Assembly: GCF_026210795.1 (NCBI RefSeq)
Contig: NC_089449.1
Location: 2,232,001-2,296,000, forward strand
Direction of reading: 5' to 3'
Length of the DNA stretch: 64,000 bases
Source: Rhizophagus irregularis
Lineage: Eukaryota > Glomeromycota > Glomeromycetes > Glomerales > Glomeraceae
The notes under the pieces were generated by a model. That model worked only from the letters and a program-made list of their open reading frames with translations, was not told where the DNA came from and ran no database searches. A program made the translations under genes and the position numbers. Positions within the stretch are counted from its first letter, which is position 1; every line of letters starts with the position of its first letter. This document shows, in pieces, positions 42-47,770 of this stretch.

Positions 42-3000
42 TTACTTTGTATTAGATGAAATTTTGTAAAGTCCGAGTGGAACATCATCATCTTCATCAT
101 CTGCTGTTGAGTTTATCGTCGATATTTTTGACGAAATTTTATTATGAGGATTTAACGGCCTCGTTCCCGCACTTGACGATCGATTTCTTGGTATATTTAT
201 GAATTTACGCTTACTTGATGGTGGTACTGAGTTTCTTTGTGGAGTTGGAGGACCTGATTTTTTATTAGGTGATGTTGGTCTACCAGTTGGTGATTTTGAA
301 CGTCCAGTTGATGATTTCGAACGTCCATTAGGAGAAGGGGATCGAACATAATTATTATTTTTAATTCCACTACTACTTTCTCCTATATTGTCATCAAATT
401 CTGCACTGGAGTGTAATAATCCTCCACTATGACTACTTTCGATTCTTCCATTGGTCTCGTCAAGATATCCACCATCGGTTCCATCAGAAAGATATTCATC
501 ATTATAATGATGATAACCATGAGCTTGAATCTCATCTTCGCCGTGATAATCGATGTTGTCGCCAAAATCTTCTACAGTTTCTTCCTCGAATTCATTTGTG
601 GACGTTGGTGGCGTCATATATTGTTGCGATATTTGATTCATATCATATTGTGGAGCTTTATATGCTATTTCTGCACTTGATCCTGGTCCTGCTCCTTTTC
701 TTGTTAATCCTGATTTCTTTTCTGCTTTTTTTCTTTTGCGGCTAGTTTTCTCTTTACCTACTTTACTTTTCACTTTGTGTGCTGCTATTTCAGCATTTGG
801 ATTCCCACCACCTCCATGTTCAACTTGTTGCTTATTAATTAGTGATAAATACCAAAACATCATGTTGGAAATGAGTACTTGTTCGTGCAACGGACGTCGT
901 GGGTTTGCAAGTTTGACATGAGAAAGACGGTAGATTGCACGTTCTACATGAATAGGAAGACGGTTATAATTGGTATATTTTGTTTTCTTATTCGAAATAA
1001 TTGGCTGTGATAATGATGTAGTCGTATTAGTAGTTGTTAATGAATCATCTGTCGATTTTCCTTTATTCTGAGGCCATGAAAAAATGGATGAAAATGACTT
1101 TTTCGGTGATTTTTCTCTATCTTTTTCTTTATCCTTTTCTTTAACAATTGAATCGTTGTTCTCGTTTTCATTTCTGTCAGATTTTTCAGATTTCTCAGAT
1201 TTTTCAGATTTTTCAGACTTATCAGATTTGTTCTTTTTAGGTTTTGGTTCTTTTTCTTCTTTATCTTTTTCATGATCTTTTTCCTTATCTTTTAATTTTT
1301 CTTCCGACCCTCCAGGCCATAGCCATGACCATGCAGAAGTACGTTTTTGTGTCGAGGATGTAGGTGTTGTCAGGGATGTTGGACTTGTAGAATTTGGTGA
1401 TGTTGACGGTGATATCGTAGTTGAAAAGGTCCCGGGTTTAGATGTATTTACTTTTAATGAATTTGATTCATCGGATTGATCTACTTGCAATTCACTTGAT
1501 AATTCATTTTCATCTGATGCCAACGAACTTGTTTTATGAAGTGCAGGAGTAATCTGAGATGAAACTTCCGGTGGTGCAACTTCATCTTTCAATGTTATAC
1601 GTATAGGTCCTGCACCATCTTTAACATCTATACATTCAAGTTCAATGTCTTTTTGTATTTCTTCAGGTTCATCAACTATTTCGCTAGAATTCAGTTTCTT
1701 ATCTACTTTATCAATAGTAATTTGTGGAACCGAAAGAGATTCTGATTTTTGTTTTGGTCTCTTTGATACTATATTATTTTCGGATTGTTTTTCTTTATCA
1801 GATGATACATGAGTAGATCTTGTTCTTCTATGTGCAGAAAATCTTCTAGGATTTTGCTCTCCAGCAACAGAATTTCTGCGAATTTTTGTGCGTGCGGCAC
1901 GCTTAAGTGCTGGAGACATTCTCGGTACAAGGACTTTTGAGTCCACATCAGGAGAAGAATGTCGATCAAATATATTTGGGTCATTAGGATTAGAAATTGA
2001 TCCTCCTTAATGTTATAATTTCCAATTAATAAATACAATAATTGAAGGTCGGCCAAGTAAATATGTGACAAAGAAAAAAAAATTTTAGTTTTTTGACAAA
2101 AACAACAATAACAATGTAAATGTATTTTTTAATTCATCCATTCATTCGAATTTTTTTTTTCTTTGAGAACTTTTGTTATAACATTAAAAATGATATCAAA
2201 AATACTCATATAACATTAGTTTGAAGTTTTGCAAATGATGCAAATTTAATTAAATAAATTAATTATCTTACCCATAAACGGCGGAAGATTCAAACTTAGA
2301 CTCCTTCGTAATATATTTAATTTTGTTGATTCTGAAGTTGGATTAATATTTCCATCTGATCCAATGTATGACTCCCAATCAAAACCGGTCCATTTTTTCT
2401 CAGGTTCCACTTTTTTATCTGTTGTTTCTTCTTCATCATCTTCAACATCTGAAGGAATATATTGTTTAGAAAGAGTTGATTTCCGCCTTCTTAACGACCC
2501 TATTCCAGAATTAAACCCATCTTTTGCATGATTTTTTAACCACTTTCTAAATTCATTTGGCGCTATTTCTGGATGCAAATGTGCGGGTACCCAAAACAAA
2601 TGAGATGGATTGTCCGTTTCAATGTGAAGTTCTTCAGTGACAGGTTGAGAATTTGTTAAGCAATCCGAGTCGTCTTCCTCTAAACCCATAATTGATTTTC
2701 TCTTTAGCCTCATTTCAATAAAACCTGGATTTCTTAATGGTGCCTCTGTTGTATCTTCTTTTGAATTAATAGAAATGTCTTTAGTAACATCAAAAATATG
2801 CGAATCTTTAGTTGTTATAGAATCTGATGAGGTTTCTCTATTATGTTCTTTAACAGAATGTTCCTGAGGTAGAGAAACGTTTATTTTAACTTTTTTTTGT
2901 TCAGGCCGGGGTTCTATTTCAGTTTCCGACATAGTAGGCGAGGGACCAAGAGTTAAAGCTTGTGTACTTTTCTCTCTGCTCGGATCAACTTTTGACGGTA

Positions 3001-3094
3001 AAATTTCTTCTGTATTATATTCAGTAGGTCCAAAAGTTTCGTCCAACATTTTCGAAAATTCTAATAAATTTTCTCCGGAAGTTTCGTTAACCAT
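42..3094 (-). CDS. Zds1-like cell-cycle / polarity regulator
   Basis: Two exons, 3094-2272 and 2005-42, give 928 codons plus stop; the phase (1+2) and GT-AG sites fit. Around residues 165-190 there is a block HLFWVPAHLHPEI followed by EFRKWLKNH, which resembles the conserved N-terminal motif of Zds proteins. Around residues 630-672 sits RAIYRLSHVKLANPRRPL followed by QVLISNMMFWYL, the hallmark of the Zds C-terminal domain. In yeasts Zds proteins bind PP2A-Cdc55 and act in mitotic entry and exit and in polarity; that role is inferred here by family. The rest is low-complexity: S/T/P-rich linkers, a Lys/Glu/Asp/Ser stretch with repeated KSEK units, and an SPTGR/SPNGR repeat near the C-terminus. 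The start is the only ATG opening exon 1. The exon 2 acceptor is a tandem AAGGAG, so two in-frame splice forms differing by one codon are possible. Transcribed in the same direction as UBC8 upstream. Confidence 0.85.
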
Positions 3095-3962
3095 TTCATT
3101 TAATATATATAAAAAAATTTTACTATATACAAATTAAAAAGTAAAAAACATATTATGAACAACAAGTGACGAGAAAAAATCTTTTATAAACTTTTATCTC
3201 TTGGCGTATGAGTATAAAAAACTAAAATTTCAAATTTGACTAATAAAGTAATTTGTACATGGGGGACGGGGGGTGCAAAAATTCAGTATGTCGGAAAAAT
3301 TTTCCGGCTACATAAAGGAAATCTTTAATTTTAACTTTATATATTTTTCACTTATGCACTTTCCCAAATAGCTTATTTACATTACGTAATGCTAAGTAAA
3401 TATAATGCCGGAATTTAAACCGGGAAATTCATGAGTCGGATATTTTAACGAGAGAATATTTTAACAAGAGAATATTTAGTTTAAATTTTATCAAATTATA
3501 AAGAAGCGTATTATCATTTGAAAGTCTAATTAAGCAAATTAACTATTTTATCATCATAATCATAATATTTACTATATTCTGTATACTGTATGTACAAAAA
3601 TAAAATTCAATTAATGATAAGGGGATATGAAATGTTCATTATAAATTTGTAAATATGTTACAAACATTTATTATGAAAAGGTACTTCAACTGTACCTGAA
3701 GTTTATAGTTTATGCTTAAAATTATAAAAACTCAAAATACTGCTTTAAAAATCCTGTTACTTATAAATGTGAGAAAAAGGGAAAAAAAAAACAAAACAAA
3801 TAACAAATAAAAAAAAAATAAAATAATTTCTATAATGCTATATATATTGGAGCAACTAATTAAAAGTAAGAAAATTTGATAATAAAACAAACAAAATAAC
3901 ACAAAACTAGAGTAATATCAATATAAATTTTGATAGAATTTTTGACTTTGAACGCATCCATG
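3095..3962. other. Intergenic: UBC8 3' end and ZDS1-like upstream region
   Basis: No ORF of note. AT-rich sequence that must hold the 3' UTR of the E2 gene and the promoter of the ZDS1-like gene, both on the minus strand. A G-run (GGGGGACGGGGGG, about 3260-3272) is the only GC-rich patch and could be a zinc-finger factor site; this is a guess. Confidence 0.5.
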
Positions 3963-15940: not shown

Positions 15941-16183
15941 TAAGGTTGCTTGTCTAAACCTCTTCAAAATTCTACGATTAGTTTCATTAAAATTTTACTA
16001 TAGATTTATTATAGTTTTGGCAGAGTTTTGGCAGTTTCGGCATTTATAATAAGTTTCAGCAGTTTCGCCTTTCTCCAAAGTTTTGCCAGTTTTTTAATAT
16101 AACTTTAATATAGTTTCGGCAGAATTTCACTTTTCGGTGAAACGCCATCTTGCCTAAACCCTAAATTTCGGCAAGTAACCTTA
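15941..16183. mobile_element. hAT MITE, TAAGGTTGC family, copy 1
   Basis: 243 bp with TAAGGTTGCTTGTCTAAACC and GGCAAGTAACCTTA ends and a perfect 8-bp duplication TATACGAT (15933-15940 and 16184-16191). The interior matches the copies at 37724-37967 and 46836-47079, in opposite orientation. Nested inside the larger hAT element, which has the same kind of ends and may be its source of transposase. Confidence 0.9.
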
Positions 16184-16208
16184 TATACGATTAAAAATAT
16201 AATAAAAA

Positions 16209-17079
16209 TTAAAATTTAATAATATCTTTATCTTCTATGTGGGGACCTGCTTCTACCTCTTCTTCTATCTTTACTTCTGTCCCGTTTTCTATCTCTACTT
16301 CTATCTCGTCTTCTATCTCTACTTCTTGATCTACTTCTTGATCAAGACCTAGATTGCAACCTTCTTCTTTCCCTTCGCAATCTATATTTATATCAATGTC
16401 GATTATGCGCAGCATGCTGCCATCGATACTCTCGTCTAAACAGATCTAAAATCCAATAAAAATATTAATGAATTGAATGAATTGCCTAAATAAAATTAAT
16501 TTAAAATAATAATTAATAATAATTACCGGTTTGTAACCAGAATTCATCGTTCATATCAGCAAAACACGCTCTATCGAAACTATTTGGGCTTATAATAGGA
16601 ATGTCGTCATCATTATTATTTATTATCTTACTAAGGTTTTCATAACCTCGTTTGAGGTAAGGTTGCTTGCCAAAACCTCTCCAAAATCCTGCGATAAATT
16701 TCGGCAAGATTTTACTATATGTTTACTATAGTTTCGGCAGGGTTTCGGCAGTTTTGGCAAATGGGGGTTTCGGCATTTTGGCAAAGTTTCGGCAGGATTT
16801 TTAATATGATTTAATATAGTTTCGGCATTTTCCGTATAGGTTTCGGCAGTTATTAAGAAGGTTTCGGCAAGCAATCTTAGTTTGAGGGCATTCCATTTTG
16901 TTTGGCATTGCCTGGGTGTCACTGCAAATCCCGTTGCAACAAACACCCTATTTGCTATTATTGTCCATGCATTTACATGATGACAGTTTACAATTCTTTC
17001 GAATTGCTGATGTAAGTTTCTTCGTTCTGCAATTAATTGCCTAGCTGCGTTAATCGTCCATTGGAATACTGGTGGTGGC
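16209..17079 (-). pseudogene. Myb/SANT-like DNA-binding protein gene, disrupted
   Basis: The minus strand from about 17079 reads VFQWTINAARQLIAERRNLH, then VNAWTIIANRVF and TPRQCQTKWNALK. This is the tryptophan-spaced pattern of a Myb/SANT-like domain of the kind common in fungi with many transposons. A 222-bp MITE (16658-16879) interrupts it; deleting the MITE and one 8-bp copy continues the frame as KRGYENL. An intron follows (GT at about 16526, best acceptor at about 16433), leading to an acidic tail rich in EVEIEDE-like repeats that stops at 16209. The 5' end is lost: a hAT left terminus abuts at 17080. Dead as it stands. Myb/SANT proteins accompany some DNA transposons, but here it may simply be captured host sequence. 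Confidence 0.55.
16658..16879. mobile_element. hAT MITE, TAAGGTTGC family, divergent copy 2
   Basis: 222 bp, ends TAAGGTTGCTTGCCAAAACC and GGTTTCGGCAAGCAATCTTA, with a perfect 8-bp duplication GTTTGAGG (16650-16657 and 16880-16887). The inside differs from copy 1 and carries many TTTCGGCA words. It sits inside the Myb/SANT-like coding sequence. Confidence 0.9.
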
Positions 17080-17300
17080 TAAAGTTGCCTGCCAAAACTC
17101 ATTTGACCTGATGCCGAAAGTCGAAACTGGTTTATTAGTGCCGAAACTGCCGAAATGCCGAAATGCCGAAACTGCCAAAACTGCCAAAACTTGCCGAATT
17201 GCCGTAACCTGCTGTAACTGCCGAAATAGTTTCGGCATTCGACATTTCGTCACTATTTCTTAATGATTTAATTAAAGTTTCGGCATTTATGAGCAATAAG
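17080..17300. mobile_element. Solo left end of another hAT element
   Basis: Begins TAAAGTTGCCTGCCAAAACT and continues with GCCGAAACTGCCGAAA repeats, then TGATTTAATTAAAGTTTCGG. It runs parallel to the left end of the 5.7-kb hAT element (15657-15870, which has TGATTTAATTAGAGTTTCGG). No matching right end with the duplication GTGGTGGC was found, so this is a truncated or composite end. Confidence 0.5.
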
Positions 17301-17390
17301 TTAATATCATACTATAATCTGCGGTTTGCAGATTCCCGATCTTTTTTTTTAAAAAAAAACCGGTAAACGGATATATTTTTTTTATTAAAG

Positions 17391-18010
17391 ATGGTTTTTA
17401 AAACCATTTTTTATTCTTTTTATTTAATCGGCAAAAGGTAAGTTATTATATATATTTTTTTTGGGGGGAACGTTACTAACGTTCCTTTCTATTTTTTCCT
17501 TAGGGATGAGCTCTTAGACGAACTTGAACTTGGAAATTGAAATGTAAGTTAGCGGGAAGTGGGAGGGGACTTTTTCTTTAATATATTGAAGAAACATACT
17601 AATGTTTCTTCAATTTATTTTTTTTTTTTAGGTTGCCGGACTATTTAGACGAACCCGGACTTGGAATGTAAGGAATGAGAAGAGGGATTCTTTAACATTA
17701 CTGTAAAGAAACGTACTAACGTTTCTTATTTGCTTTGTTTGGCGTATATTTCAGCCTTAACCTTGCAAGAAGGGGAAGGGATTGGGGAGATTGAATTTTT
17801 CTTTATGAAACGTTAATAACGGTTCTTTTTCTTCTTTATTGTAGGGTTGCCGGGTGATTACTACGAAGCATAAACTGGACTTTGAAATTTAGATATGGAG
17901 ACCAGGGGAGTGAATTTTTTTGTTATATTCTTTAAGAAACGTAACTAACGTTTCCTTTCCTTTTTGTAGGGTTGCCATACGAATACTAAAGCCCGGACTT
18001 TGAATGAGAT
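17391..18010 (+). pseudogene. Micro-exon repeat array, secreted-peptide-gene-like remnant
   Basis: A possible first exon 17391-17437 reads MVFKTIFYSFYLIGK with donor GGTAAGT. It joins in phase to an exon at 17504-17543 whose first codon makes a Lys-Arg, followed by DELLDELELGN and a stop. Similar exon-like blocks follow at 17632-17667 (LPDYLDEPGLG), about 17845 (LPGDYYEA) and about 17970 (LPYEY). Each is preceded by a T-rich tract and AG. Most spacers carry a TACTAAC-like branch motif within a palindrome, such as GAACGTTACTAACGTTC. Phases and stops do not let all units join, so the array appears decayed. The layout, a hydrophobic start then KR then repeated short peptides, resembles Kex2-processed repeat precursors. 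That is inference; I do not recognise a named family. Confidence 0.4.
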
Positions 18011-18039: not shown

Positions 18040-18362
18040 ACATTCTACATAATTAAAGTATTTGTAACAAAATAAACACAGTTTTAATTCTAATGTAATA
18101 AATTTAATTAACGCAGTTCTAAATTTTTTTTTGTAACGCAGTTCTTAAAATTTATTGATCTAATGTAATAAATTTAATTAACGAAATCCTTAAAACTTAT
18201 TGATTCTAATATAATATGCTTATCTTTATTCCTTAATTAAATTGCACTATTTTTAAAATATAATATGCTTATCCTTATTCCTTAATTAAATTGCACTATT
18301 TTTAAAATATAATATGCTTATCCTTATTCCTTAATTAAATTGCAATGTTTTAAAATATAATA
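18040..18362. repeat. Two short tandem repeats
   Basis: A unit with GTAATAAATTTAATTAACG and GCAGTTCTTAAAA recurs two to three times at 18090-18205. A second, roughly 50-bp unit (AATATGCTTATCCTTATTCC, then TTAATTAAATTGCA) is repeated three times with few changes at about 18211-18362. Non-coding. Confidence 0.7.
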
Positions 18363-18538
18363 TAAAATTACAATTGCCTGCATTGCCTGCATAATTATAT
18401 GTTAACTGGACTTTGATCACGAATATTTTGCCCTGCATAATTACATCATTTATTTCCTAAATAGTATCATTATTTAAATCACATGATATTAGAATTAATT
18501 CTCATTGGATTAACTATTGTAATTATTTCTCATCATTA

Positions 18539-20838
18539 TTATTCCTCATTATTATCATGATTATCGTCATTATTATCACTGTTATCCATACCTAATACAT
18601 CATCTATATCATAATCATAGTCACCTTCTCTGGGTCTCTTGTTATTACTACTATCATCAACTTCATCATCTTCCGCATTATTTTCATCTGAATCATTCAA
18701 TATATCTCTTGGAATATCGCTGATTTTACTAGTAATTGAATCATGCGATAAATTAACAAATTGATCAATCCATAGACTTTCGATTACTACACGGCAATTG
18801 TCTTCGGGTATTGTTTCACCGCTTGTAGTTAATCTCTCGAGTAGAAGCTTGCTCCTCATTATATTCCTTATCGTCATCTTCTGCAAAAGCTTCTGCAATA
18901 CGTATATTGATCTCATCATCACTAAGATGAGTATTCTTTTTTTGATCAATTCCATAAAATCCAAGTTCAGTTTTTGAATTGGATTTCCAATACAAAATTA
19001 ATTTGCACATGGATTCTAGTTTATCCACATTAAGATTTAAGCGACGTTTATAAAATAGCCATTCTAAAGTCGAAAATCCACGTTCGCAAGTTGCTAAGTT
19101 AAGACATATTGCAAATAAATAACTTGCAATTCTTGGCAGGGCATCTGGTTCTGGTTCGGTATTAATATATTTCCACCAATTCACGGAATTATCTTTAGCA
19201 AAACCGATATCTAGGTCAAATGGCTTTTGTTCATTAATATATTTCTGTATTTGATCACATAAAGTTTCAGCTTCGTAACGATCGAAACCTAAATTTTTCC
19301 CGATTGAAGCTGCACATTTGATAATTCTCATGAGGGCGCATTTTTTAAGTGGCGCGTTTCTAAATCTGGGATCCATAAAAAAACAAGTAATATACTTATC
19401 ATCATCGAACTCATCAAATCTTTCATTTATTACTTTGATACAATGACTTCAGAATGCAGGATTTAATGATTTGGGTAACTTTTTTAATGTAGCTGCAAGT
19501 CTTGCCAAGCTCAGGAAACAATCTGCAAATGTAGCTATTCTCGATTCTAATGAAAGTACCGCTTTTCTTAGAGGATCCAGAACAAATCCAAGAACTCGTA
19601 AATTTGAAAAAAATTTCTCGATTGAATAATCAGTTTTATTTTATCATTTGTTAGCACTTTATCATGATCGCTGGCCATTTCTTCTAGTGCTGATTCCAAA
19701 TTTATTACTGAATTTACGGATTCACTAGCAGTAGTCCAGCGTGTTTTGCAATATAATTTTAATCCTCCTCCACTAATTCCTTTTTCTTTAATTATTTGAG
19801 CAAGTTTTGCATTAGTCTGATGAGAACTTCTAAAAAAGGTTGTCAAAATATTAACACGTTTTAATAAACGTTCCCTAAACTTCTTCTTGACAATGTCGCA
19901 TGTAATTAAATTGATAGAATGTGCAACACATCGCACATTCTCAATCTTTGGATGATTCTCATGTATAATTTTTTGTGCATTACGAACATTGGCTGCATTA
20001 TCAGAAACTACAGCACATATTCGATCTTCTCCAATACCTTCTATAACCTTTTCAATTACCGTAACTAGATATTCTGCAGTGTGCGAATTTTCAGACAAAT
20101 CAGAAAGTTGATAAAGATATTCTTTACGCGACAGAGTCATTACAATGAAGTTCCAAATTGAACGATGTGTACCAGACGTCCAACCATCAAAGGCTAAATT
20201 ATAAATTAATATTATATAGTAAGTAAGATTAAATAAAAATGACGTATGATAGCCTATTTAATTTAACAAACCTAACGTTAAATTCGTTTCCTTTCAAGCT
20301 CAGAATTAACTTTGAAGTTCACTTGAGCTAATTCACGTTCAAGTAGTTGATTTACTAATACTTCCCTTGTTAGTGTATTGTACCCGGCATTAAGCTCTTT
20401 TATAAAATTGATGAAAAAGAGATGTTCCACTACTCTAAACGCAATTCTGCACGCAATAAAAAATTTAACTAATGCATGATTAATTCGTGTACATCTTTGT
20501 TCGTTAAGCTCTGTTGAATCATGGTAATTATCCATGTTACTTTGACCTTCAGAGTATTTTCTTTTTTTAGATGACTTGGATTTATCTTGCCGTTCCATTA
20601 CTTTAGTCATATACCTTCTAATAACTGCTGCTGGCGCATCTGAACAATGGTTTGAAAGATGCTCTTCAAGCTTTGAAACTTCATCGCGTGACCATGTATT
20701 CTTACAGTACTTGCAAGAGGCGGCAAATTTGCCAGAACTAACAGCTTCTCCTTTATTAATATCTTCCCAAATGCTATTAGGTGGCTGACCTCCTCTATTT
20801 TTCTTTTTAATGGGTGAATCTTCTATGTGATCAGTCAT
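18539..20838 (-). pseudogene. hAT transposase with BED zinc finger, decayed
   Basis: Reading from 20838: an N-terminal BED finger (residues about 25-66: W-x-D, CKYCKNTW, then LEEHLSNHC), then an intron with acceptor at about 20195 leading into AFDGWTSGTHRSIWNFIV, the catalytic-core region AVVSDNAANVRNAQ and CVAHSINLITCD, and finally the hAT dimerisation block WWKYI, LPRIASYLFAICLNLATCER and GFSTLEWLFYKRRLNL. The C-terminus (18539-18830) is Asp/Asn-rich. Lesions: a frameshift just before NLTL at about 20280, a frame change at about 19575, an in-frame TGA at about 19450 and a frame change near 18830. Inactive. Family role: cut-and-paste transposition producing 8-bp duplications, as seen at this element's ends. 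Confidence 0.85.
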
Positions 20839-22220
20839 TTGAAACAGTTTATTATTAATTTTATTATTAAGAAAATGGAAGAAAGTAAAAGAAACTTTAG
20901 TTCAGTATTAAAGGAGATGACGGAATTGGGTTTATTAAATGCATGTTACGCATTTTCCTTTAATGAATATAAGCCCCTTAAAAAGAAACTGTAAAAACGT
21001 GTAATATCATAATATTAATATGGGAGTTAGAAATGAAAATTCTAACACTAGATAAAGCTTAAAAGAACTAAGACGACGGTAAAATATTAAAGTTTAATCT
21101 TTTATCTGTAGATTATTTGATCATCTAAATTATATTATTAATTGGTGTAACTTGGCGTAACTATATGCAAATCTTATGATCAACTATGCTGAAACTACGG
21201 AGAAACCTATTATAGAGGTTTCGGTATATTTCGGCAGTTTCGCAATTTTGACAGGTTTCGCAGTTTCAGCGTTTTGGCGTTTCAGTACTATATAAGAGGT
21301 TTCACCTTTCGGCATTAGGCCAAACAGGTTTTGGCAAGTAACCTTATGTGGGAATCATTAACTCTTTTAAGATTAGTGTTATTGATAATTTTACAAAATA
21401 ATGCTTTTTTAATAAATCATAATGATTTTTAAGCACAATATCGAAAAATACTTATTAGAAACAGGATTGAAGCATATGAAATTTCACAAAAATTAAATAG
21501 AGAGATTGTTCCTTTGAATATTTATGATTCTATTAATTTCAGTACAAATGCTTGAAACTCTGTAAGTCAACAGACAATTAATAATTATTGGCAGCATATA
21601 GGAATCCTTTCACAGGATAAAATAGGCGATAAAATTGAGAATTATGATGATCAAGCGGTTCATGATGAAATGGAGTTGCAAGGTTTAATTAACCAGCTCC
21701 CATTTGATGATCCTATAAATGTAAAAGAATTCCTTCATATTGATGATTTTTTAAAAAAGAAATGAAGAGATAAGTGATGAAGAAGTTATATCTATGGTAA
21801 AATCAAATAATACAAACTAGAAACAGATCCAAATAAGGGAGAACTTTTAGAAATAATTTCTAAAAGAGAGGCTTTAAGATATTTGGATGATCTTATTGTA
21901 TTTTTTGAATATTCATCAGATGTTTCTAGTGATTTAACTGAATTAAATTTATTAAGAAAATTGAGACACTAAATATTGAAATCTTACATTGATAATTCAA
22001 AACAGATTACATTAGATAATTTTATTTAAATTTTGTAATACAGTTTTTTCGAATAATAATATAATAAAGGGATATTAATGCTAATAATTACATTAAAATA
22101 ATAATTTTAAAGTTTTGTATAATTAATATTGGTATATAAAATTTTTTTACTATACTAATATTTCGATCTATCGATAATTTTTTCTAAAACTAGTAGCATC
22201 AGTACATCAGGTTTTGACTG

Positions 22221-37704: not shown

Positions 37705-38067
37705 TAAAGATGTTAGTCATAATTAAGGTTGCTTGCCGAAACCTAGGGGTTTAGGTAAGATGGCGTTTCGCCAAAAAGTGAAATTCTGCCAAAACTATAT
37801 TAAAGTTATATTAAAAAACTGGCAAAATTTTAGAGAAAGGCAAAACTGCCAAAACTTATTATAAATGCCAAAGCTGCCAAAACTCTGCCAAAACTATAAT
37901 AAATCTATGGTAAAATTTTGACGAAACTAATCGTAGGATTTTGAAAAGGTTTAGACAAGCAACCTTAGTCATAATATCATAATACAAAAATTTTATATGT
38001 TGTAATAGGTTGCAACTTATTAAAACATATGTAATAATAGGGTTGATAATTAAAGCTAATATTTTTA
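37705..38067. mobile_element. hAT MITE, TAAAGATGTTAG family, small copy
   Basis: Ends TAAAGATGTTAGTCATAAT and AAGCTAATATTTTTA, perfect 8-bp duplication ATGGTACT (37697-37704 and 38068-38075). Without the nested element (37724-37967 plus one duplication) it is only 111 bp. Confidence 0.75.
37724..37967. mobile_element. hAT MITE, TAAGGTTGC family, copy 3 (nested)
   Basis: 244 bp, ends TAAGGTTGCTTGCCGAAACC and GGTTTAGACAAGCAACCTTA, perfect 8-bp duplication GTCATAAT (37716-37723 and 37968-37975). Inserted inside the TAAAGATGTTAG-family MITE. Confidence 0.92.
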
Positions 38068-46729: not shown

Positions 46730-47770
46730 TACTTTATTAAAGTATTATAAAATTTGATAGCTAAAATGCAAGAAAAACTCAAAAATTAGTACTATTATAA
46801 AAAATACAGATATCTTTACAAGTATTATACTTACATAAGGTTGCTTGCTAAAACCTAGGGGTTTAGGCAAGATGGCGTTTCGCCGAAAAGCGAAATTCTG
46901 CCAAAACTATATTAAAGTTATATTAAAAAACTGGCGAAACTTTGGAAAAAGACGAAACTGCTGAAACTTATTATAAATGCCGAAACTGCTGAAACTCTGC
47001 CAAAACTATAATAAATCTATAGTAAAATTTTGACGAAACTAATCATAGGATTTTGAAGAGGTTTAGACAAGCAACCTTATACTTACATTTATGAAAATTA
47101 AAATGTAAGTGTTTTTCACCTTGCTGAACAATTTTTCACTTAATAAAGAAAGTTGATTTTATTTGAGTAAAGTAGTGAAATTACGCTCTAAATTTAATAA
47201 ACAAAAAATGAAAATTTAAAAATTATTACTATTATATAAACGCAAATATTTTCACAAGTATTATACTTACATTCATGAAATTTAAAATATAAGTAGTTTC
47301 AATATTGCTAAATAACTATTGCTTAATAAAGAAAGTTAATCTTATTTGACTAAAGTAGTGAAATTACGCTCTGAAGTTAATAAACAGAAAAATGAAAAAT
47401 TTAAAATTATTGTTATTATAAAAAATATGAATATTTCCATAAGTATTATACTTATGCTTATGATATTTAAGATATAAGTAGATTTGATATCACTGAACAA
47501 CTTTTAATTAATAAAAGAAGTCAATTTCATTTGACTAAAGTAGTGAAATTATGCTCTAAAGTTAACAAAAGGAAAAATAAAAAATTTAAAAATTATTGTT
47601 ATTATAAAAAACACAAATATTTCTACAAGTATTATACTATGCTTATGATATTTAAGAAATAAGTAGTTTCAACATTGCCAAACAACTTTTTGCTTAATAA
47701 AGGAAGTTGATTTCATTTGATTAAAATAGTGAAATTACGCTCTGAAGTTAGAAAATATAACACAAAAGAA
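46730..47770. repeat. Degenerate tandem array, unit about 165-190 bp (block 2)
   Basis: Four or more copies of the unit seen at 9.5-11.1 kb, here better preserved (AGTAGTGAAATTACGCTCT, AATTATTGTTATTATAAAAA, ACAAGTATTATACTTA, AAGAAAGTTGATTTTATTTG). A TAAGGTTGC MITE is inserted in the first unit (46836-47079), and an AGGACCCCGG MITE sits at the end (47785). Confidence 0.75.
46836..47079. mobile_element. hAT MITE, TAAGGTTGC family, copy 4
   Basis: 244 bp, ends TAAGGTTGCTTGCTAAAACC and GGTTTAGACAAGCAACCTTA, perfect 8-bp duplication TACTTACA (46828-46835 and 47080-47087). Same orientation and nearly the same sequence as copy 3 at 37724-37967. Confidence 0.92.

Follow-up and report, generated by a model that had tools for sequence, protein, structure and literature searches.

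The window analysed here is a 64,000-nucleotide stretch of the Rhizophagus irregularis genome (contig NC_089449.1, positions 2,232,001 to 2,296,000 of the forward strand). On its minus strand lies a hAT-like element (18539-20901 and 16209-17078), whose frames match DUF659 (E 6.6e-21) and, in a separate frame, a Myb/SANT-like domain; it also has an acidic repeat frame, and matches to the hAT dimerisation domain and to a BED finger were slightly under the curated cut-offs. A related copy of the element is present on contig 9 (L071, 436-4630); its match to the window runs to position 17079 and resumes at 18009, the two parts being separated in L071 by 168 bp that are its own. The corresponding window segment (17080-18008, plus strand) starts with part of a TTTCGGC-rich repeat (17080-17215), after which comes the array that is the subject of this report (17216-18008). 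Both parts are found on contig 20 (L028), where positions 1280-2067 and 1215-1291 are 94.9% and 94.8% identical to window positions 17216-18008 and 17080-17156, respectively. Comparing the window with L071 and contig 20 thus identifies the array as a passenger, inserted with local loss, and the window copy as a fragment. The initial annotation described the array as carried inside a hAT element; it does sit between hAT-like gene blocks, but it was inserted there and is not part of the element.

Further copies of the TTTCGGC-rich repeat are located in the window at 15941-16186, 16658-16879, 37724-37977 and 46835-47079. The ends of this repeat resemble AAGGTTGCTTG...CAAGCAACCTT, and it is probably a small transposon with inverted repeats. 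One copy lies within the Myb/SANT frame, which it interrupts, and another resides inside a contig-19 CACTG element (L072, 5616-5871). The window also has a 49-bp tandem repeat (18208-18363; 3.2 copies, 96% matches), which the contig-9 hAT copy has too.

Between 17391 and 18008 we identified five intron-like spacers separating short related blocks, all on the plus strand, and in each spacer a motif resembling a branch site is placed inside an inverted repeat. The stretch begins with an upstream exon-like unit (ATG...GGCAAAAG, 17391-17437), for which a reading as signal peptide plus Lys-Arg is not conserved (see below). Spacer 1 (17438-17503, GTAAG...TTAG, palindrome 17467-17485) is followed by an exon-like block of 40 nt (17504-17543), spacer 2 (17544-17631, GTAAG...TTAG, palindrome 17588-17611) by a block of 36 nt (17632-17667), and spacer 3 (17668-17754, GTAAG...TCAG, palindrome 17706-17727) by a remnant of 10 nt (17755-17764), which is 22 nt in the contig-20 copy. 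Spacer 4 (17765-17844) has the donor GCAAG and an imperfect palindrome (17807-17825) and precedes a block of 48 nt (17845-17892), while spacer 5 (17893-17969) has the donor ATATGG and a palindrome at 17934-17954 and precedes the last block (17970-18008, 39 nt). This last block is truncated at 18008; in the contig-20 copy the sequence goes on with GTAAAAAAGG into a donor. The exact 36-nt sequence occurs in the genome only here, with three more matches at two to three mismatches.

The TACTAAC-like motifs at 17474, 17597, 17714 and 17943 are each the centre of an inverted repeat, exactly where the initial annotation had put them, and a fifth, decayed motif (TTAATAAC) is present within the 17807-17825 repeat. 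As had also been described there, the four related blocks (starting at 17504, 17632, 17845 and 17970; 36-48 nt) are all preceded by a T-tract and AG, and GTAAG stands directly after the upstream unit (17438) and after two of these blocks (17544 and 17668). Donor, branch motif, T-tract and AG are complete and in order in spacers 1 to 3, whereas the donors of spacers 4 and 5 are altered; the contig-20 copy reads GTAAG and GTATGG at these two positions. Folding z-scores for spacers 1 to 5 were -2.85, -3.87, -1.70, -1.57 and -0.51, so only the first two clearly fold better than their shuffled versions. With altered donors and a block cut at 18008, the earlier description of a decayed copy holds, and as judged from its sequence the stretch belongs, as a truncated and decaying copy, to a superfamily found throughout the genome.

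With the array as query, at least 107 matches were obtained in the genome. The branch palindromes GAAAYRTACTAAYRTTTC and GAAAYRTTACTAAYRTTTC, searched with CpG positions left open and up to one mismatch, occur 807 and 830 times, compared to 11 and 12 occurrences of the reversed patterns; the genome search for relatives that the initial annotation proposed hence found very many. Donors, too, are palindromic in several families, and these palindromes are of two forms: in form 1 the exon end pairs across the junction (ATTTCGAAG|GTAn-CTTCGAAAT; 400 in the genome, reversed control 0) and in form 2 the stem starts inside the donor (GTAAGTTTCG...CGAAACTT; 1,686 in the genome, reversed control 6), where both counts include some perfect palindromes scored on both strands. 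We fetched 20 single-looking hits of GAAAYRTTACTAAYRTTTC, and by eye all 20 were in further micro-exon arrays, many with other exon sequences; that such hits represent introns of ordinary genes was therefore rejected.

Introns and exons were called using simple rules of our own, and the acceptor of the type-B exons is ambiguous (two AGs, six bases apart). The loci were picked by palindrome matches, so that the proportion of branch palindromes in these loci is a biased estimate. The called array introns are approximately 60-105 nt and the micro-exons approximately 20-50 nt. In the fetched loci, a T-tract plus AG was present downstream of 58 of 71 distinct donor palindromes and the mirrored signal upstream of none (0 of 71). 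This directional order argues against a satellite lacking intron syntax, a candidate that we rejected. What had been noted initially, tiny blocks that resemble exons, recur and show intron syntax, with branch sites in palindromes, is upheld. The order donor, branch motif, T-tract and AG is, at the sequence level, that of U2-type spliceosomal introns. A second palindrome was detected within 75 nt downstream of 47 of the 71 donor palindromes and in an equal upstream stretch of 34; the upstream value is one that tandem arrays would give, and the second palindrome is in this respect not specific.

The longest perfect stem in 104 distinct donor windows from the fetched loci was on average 5.18 pairs compared to 4.26 in shuffled sequences, with seven or more pairs in 24 of the 104, and in one donor form the splice junction is located in the hairpin loop. 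In the A, B and C exon families donor hairpins are mostly absent. As ordinary introns for comparison we used those of chaperonin genes in the same genome (20 gaps, 15 called introns, 14 used), which leaves out six of the 20 gaps (five without a called intron and one whose call was 209 nt long). With a mean z of -1.59 over 86 distinct introns, the array introns are more stably folded than these ordinary introns (n = 14, mean z -0.30; p 0.007); z was below -2 for 42% of the array introns, the other 58% falling short of this value, and for 14% of the ordinary ones. The branch palindrome is absent from the 15 chaperonin-gene introns called from the 20 gaps.

The best locus that we read, L094 (contig 1, 7180300-7185300, reverse strand), has a leader that includes a long CT tract and, after it, 16 called introns. 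Most of these have two predicted hairpins, the first located at the donor and the second at the branch site, and their sequences vary from intron to intron. Its mean folding z, calculated for introns with 12 exon bases added, was -4.9. In these calls the first acceptor was placed too early and 2855-3259 was kept as one long exon. Parts of the L094 leader and array match L034-L036, L038, L044, L046, L049 and L095 at approximately 71-88% identity, and the recurrence of a CT-tract leader ahead of related arrays suggests a shared transcription start. A palindrome, AATTAAGC...GCTTAATT, together with a CT-rich tract, precedes the first exon in L094 (reverse strand, approximately 1300-1600), L036, L044 and L046, and is possibly a promoter.

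Three copies of one array, L041 and L042 on contig 5 and L050 on contig 9, are 99.3-99.8% identical, which implies recent movement or duplication; two of them are approximately 21 kb apart in opposite orientation. Some elements have two different exon types on opposite strands, divergent in L018, L020 and L057 and convergent in L013-L017. Of approximately 48 array loci, eight were compared with Rfam 15 and gave no match at the gathering score. A tRNA-like end had been suspected in L013 and L040; no tRNA was predicted in the seven loci scanned.

Inverted CACTG/CACTA ends together with a 3-bp target duplication are marks of CACTA-type transposons. L014-L017 share one end, CACTGGTCAAAAT read inwards (with two changes in L016), a longer form of which occurs 214 times with up to two mismatches (control 0), often as facing pairs. 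The 3-bp flanks match in seven of eight array-bearing CACTG elements, one being without, and in three of three comparison CACTG elements. These ends and flanks show that one subset of the arrays rides on CACTA-type transposons. Among the matches listed for contigs 1-10, nine of 87 array clusters are within 5 kb of a CACTG end, compared to 0.57 by chance, while the remaining 78 have none within this distance. Scanning the window with up to three mismatches revealed no CACTG end of this kind. The array elements showed no recognisable transposase (for L071, stop-to-stop frames were read by eye only). A link to Transposase_21 genes was considered, and among the matches listed for contigs 1-10 there was no excess of Transposase_21 near array clusters.

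The window had initially been interpreted as a secreted-peptide precursor made of repeated tiny exons, with intact relatives expected to carry their units in phase. The lengths of 253 called exons are spread evenly over the remainders 0, 1 and 2 modulo three (93/80/80; chi-square p 0.51), i.e., there is no frame bias, and the corresponding values for the called introns are 75/101/77. The longest open run averaged 42.7 codons over 30 spliced chains, compared to 44.1 in shuffles; two chains were unusually open (L031, shuffle fraction 0.04, and L019, 0.06) and several were unusually closed. Type-B exons are multiples of three in 26 of 32 cases and, with the second AG as acceptor, readable as DAxLLKTNPDLDN. 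Among 15 distinct type-B copies, the ratio of synonymous to non-synonymous changes in this frame was 9:25 (12.5:21.5 expected); the second frame, which has a stop, had 12 synonymous changes (6.0 expected) and the third frame 11 (13.7 expected). For a looser set of 39-nt exons the ratio was 42:114 (43.8:112.2 expected), and related 42-nt exons contain stops. A hydrophobic start followed by Lys-Arg can be read in the window and in L028 but not in the other three printed upstream exons: L032 (the L012 locus) and L027 are without the ATG of the upstream unit, and L025 (the L007 locus) has AGTAAAAG where the window has GGCAAAAG. With frame, open-run and substitution tests all negative and the Lys-Arg start not conserved, we rejected the peptide precursor, and a repeated peptide is unlikely.

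The two arms of the palindromes change together between families. When right arms were shuffled among introns the complementarity dropped at all four divergence cut-offs, from 7.85 to 6.73 (96 arm pairs), 7.25 to 6.15 (64) and 6.70 to 5.54 (40), in each case with 0 of 1000 shuffles reaching the real value, and from 5.55 to 4.50 at the most divergent cut-off (22 pairs), with 2 of 1000 shuffles reaching it. Those bases of the donor hairpin that are free in the search pattern are fully paired at three positions in 42 of the 66 distinct sequences; in 2000 shuffles this was true of 12.4 sequences on average and of 24 at most. Moreover, at the non-CpG pair of the branch palindrome we counted 33 G-C, 4 G.T, 14 A.C and at least 100 A-T combinations, a joint change for which the Fisher p of 6e-18 ignores the common descent of the copies, as do all our copy-based counts. 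The arm shuffles, the free donor bases and the non-CpG pair together establish paired change.

At CpG positions the arms are weakly associated (Fisher p 0.008, 0.06, 1.0 and 0.05), and variation at these sites looks mostly like independent decay; this test, that of the free donor bases and the cluster distances given above cover the approximately 100 matches listed per genome search. CpG decay as the sole cause of the paired changes was rejected: it accounts for a large part, but the non-CpG pair and the free donor bases exceed it. An RNA stem would predict that G.U is favoured over A.C, and at the branch palindromes it is not (37:36), which counts against such a stem; at the non-CpG pair the wobble combination is even the rarer one (4 versus 14, p 0.03). 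Donor hairpins lean weakly towards G.U (44:27, p 0.057).

On balance we consider it more likely than not that the arrays are non-coding micro-exon transcription units whose introns are structured, that together they form a superfamily, and that the window carries a broken copy of one. Such units would be composed of tandem non-coding micro-exons (approximately 20-50 nt) and short introns and, in the best-preserved members, donor and branch site are each located within, or at the edge of, a palindrome able to form a hairpin. The units may grow by tandem duplication and the arrays may spread partly as cargo of CACTA-type transposons. We infer transcription, splicing and function of the arrays: hairpins would form in the intron RNA, shortening the intron and marking its two signals, and intron definition could then allow many tiny exons to be spliced into a non-coding RNA. 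The initial annotation's idea that the palindromes keep repeated exons in order during splicing is likewise conjecture. Counting against the structured-intron reading are the absent G.U preference at branch palindromes, the CpG variation, the 58% of array introns and three of the five window spacers with z not below -2, and the mostly missing donor hairpins of the A, B and C exon families.

The missing wobble preference at branch palindromes is what would be expected if the palindromes act as DNA, e.g. as sites for a dimeric transposase or a chromatin factor, with the arrays being clusters of transposon repeats and the intron syntax secondary or a relic. CACTA elements carry repeated subterminal binding sites, which offer a parallel, and some arrays are near CACTG element ends in both orientations. 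This explanation is unlikely in our view, given that donor and branch motifs form the centres of the palindromes and that T-tract and AG are one-sided (58 versus 0 of 71), that the junction is in the hairpin loop in one donor form, and that 78 of the 87 listed array clusters are more than 5 kb from a listed CACTG end. Arms that change in pairs with no preference for wobble would also fit palindromes kept by mutation (hairpin-templated repair or gene conversion), in arrays that merely copy a functionless ancestral exon-intron unit; near-identical copies that have grown in tandem and dispersed, and exon and intron parts of the unit that are about equally variable, point the same way. Since this leaves unexplained both why the palindromes are located at donors and branch sites and why the T-tract and AG are directional, we regard it as distinctly unlikely. 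Very improbable, finally, is the initial reading of protein or peptide genes of repeated tiny exons with a decayed copy in the window: the readable type-B exons with 26 of 32 lengths divisible by three, the two of 30 chains more open than approximately 95% of shuffles (L031 and L019) and the 12 synonymous changes versus 6.0 expected in the stop-containing type-B frame can be cited for it, but stand against even exon lengths (93/80/80 of 253), open runs no longer than shuffled, 9 synonymous changes versus 12.5 expected in the open frame, stops in the related 42-nt exons and a start that is not conserved.

Returning to non-coding units with structured introns, we put forward tentatively that these represent a possible new gene class, in which non-coding RNA units with micro-exons and structured introns, numbering hundreds to thousands, make up part of the genome's unclassified repeats and the donor and branch hairpins are selected to control or stall splicing, perhaps feeding small-RNA silencing or letting transposons pass as well-spliced transcripts.

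Structured, multiplying fungal introns are already known. Two reports (PMC8469720, PMC9860276) describe fungal introner-like elements and the symmetrical stwintrons of Hypoxylaceae as introns that multiply, are symmetrical through inverted repeats and are predicted to form hairpins, and derive some introner families from DNA transposons. The arrays resemble these in intron multiplication, inverted-repeat symmetry and predicted hairpins. However, introners and stwintrons as described there are single introns in ordinary genes, whereas in the arrays exon and intron multiply together in tandem, the exons are tiny and apparently non-coding, and donor and branch site have separate palindromes. Lone dispersal into unrelated ordinary genes, which characterises introners, was not seen among the 20 single-looking hits, all of which were in arrays. 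Micro-exon genes of Schistosoma likewise have many very short exons, but according to PMC10526429 they encode secreted proteins and have introns of up to 5 kbp, in contrast to the introns of approximately 60-105 nt and the lack of visible coding constraint in the arrays. CACTA/CMC/Plavaka families have been reported in R. irregularis (PMC11075540), and one subset of arrays is similar in having CACTG ends and 3-bp target duplications; unlike these families the window copy is without a CACTG end, and only nine of 87 listed clusters are within 5 kb of one.

SP7-like effectors of arbuscular mycorrhizal fungi share tandem repeats with the arrays, but as described in PMC11333574 these are protein-coding repeats with one conserved intron before the first repeat, while in the arrays an intron separates the units. 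The hallmarks of SP7-like effectors are a signal peptide, the motif Y[KR]Rx[AP]x[AP] and an intron before the repeats; the gene structure of the arrays differs, and an SP7-like effector was set aside based on the published SP7 gene structure. Arabinogalactan-like proteins, for which one intron is described, with two in some Gigasporaceae (PMC8786786), were also set aside. Among the titles and abstracts obtained from one open-access library we found no description of arrays of this form, which does not imply that they are absent from print.

If the arrays are spliced, they would provide a large natural experiment on donor and branch hairpins in splicing, complete with the paired changes made by evolution, and an example of an exon-intron unit that multiplies like a repeat; they would also explain some of the unclassified repeats reported for R. 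irregularis in PMC11075540. If they are not spliced, the same data raise the question of what else holds palindromes on splice signals. Either way, gene prediction in such genomes is affected.
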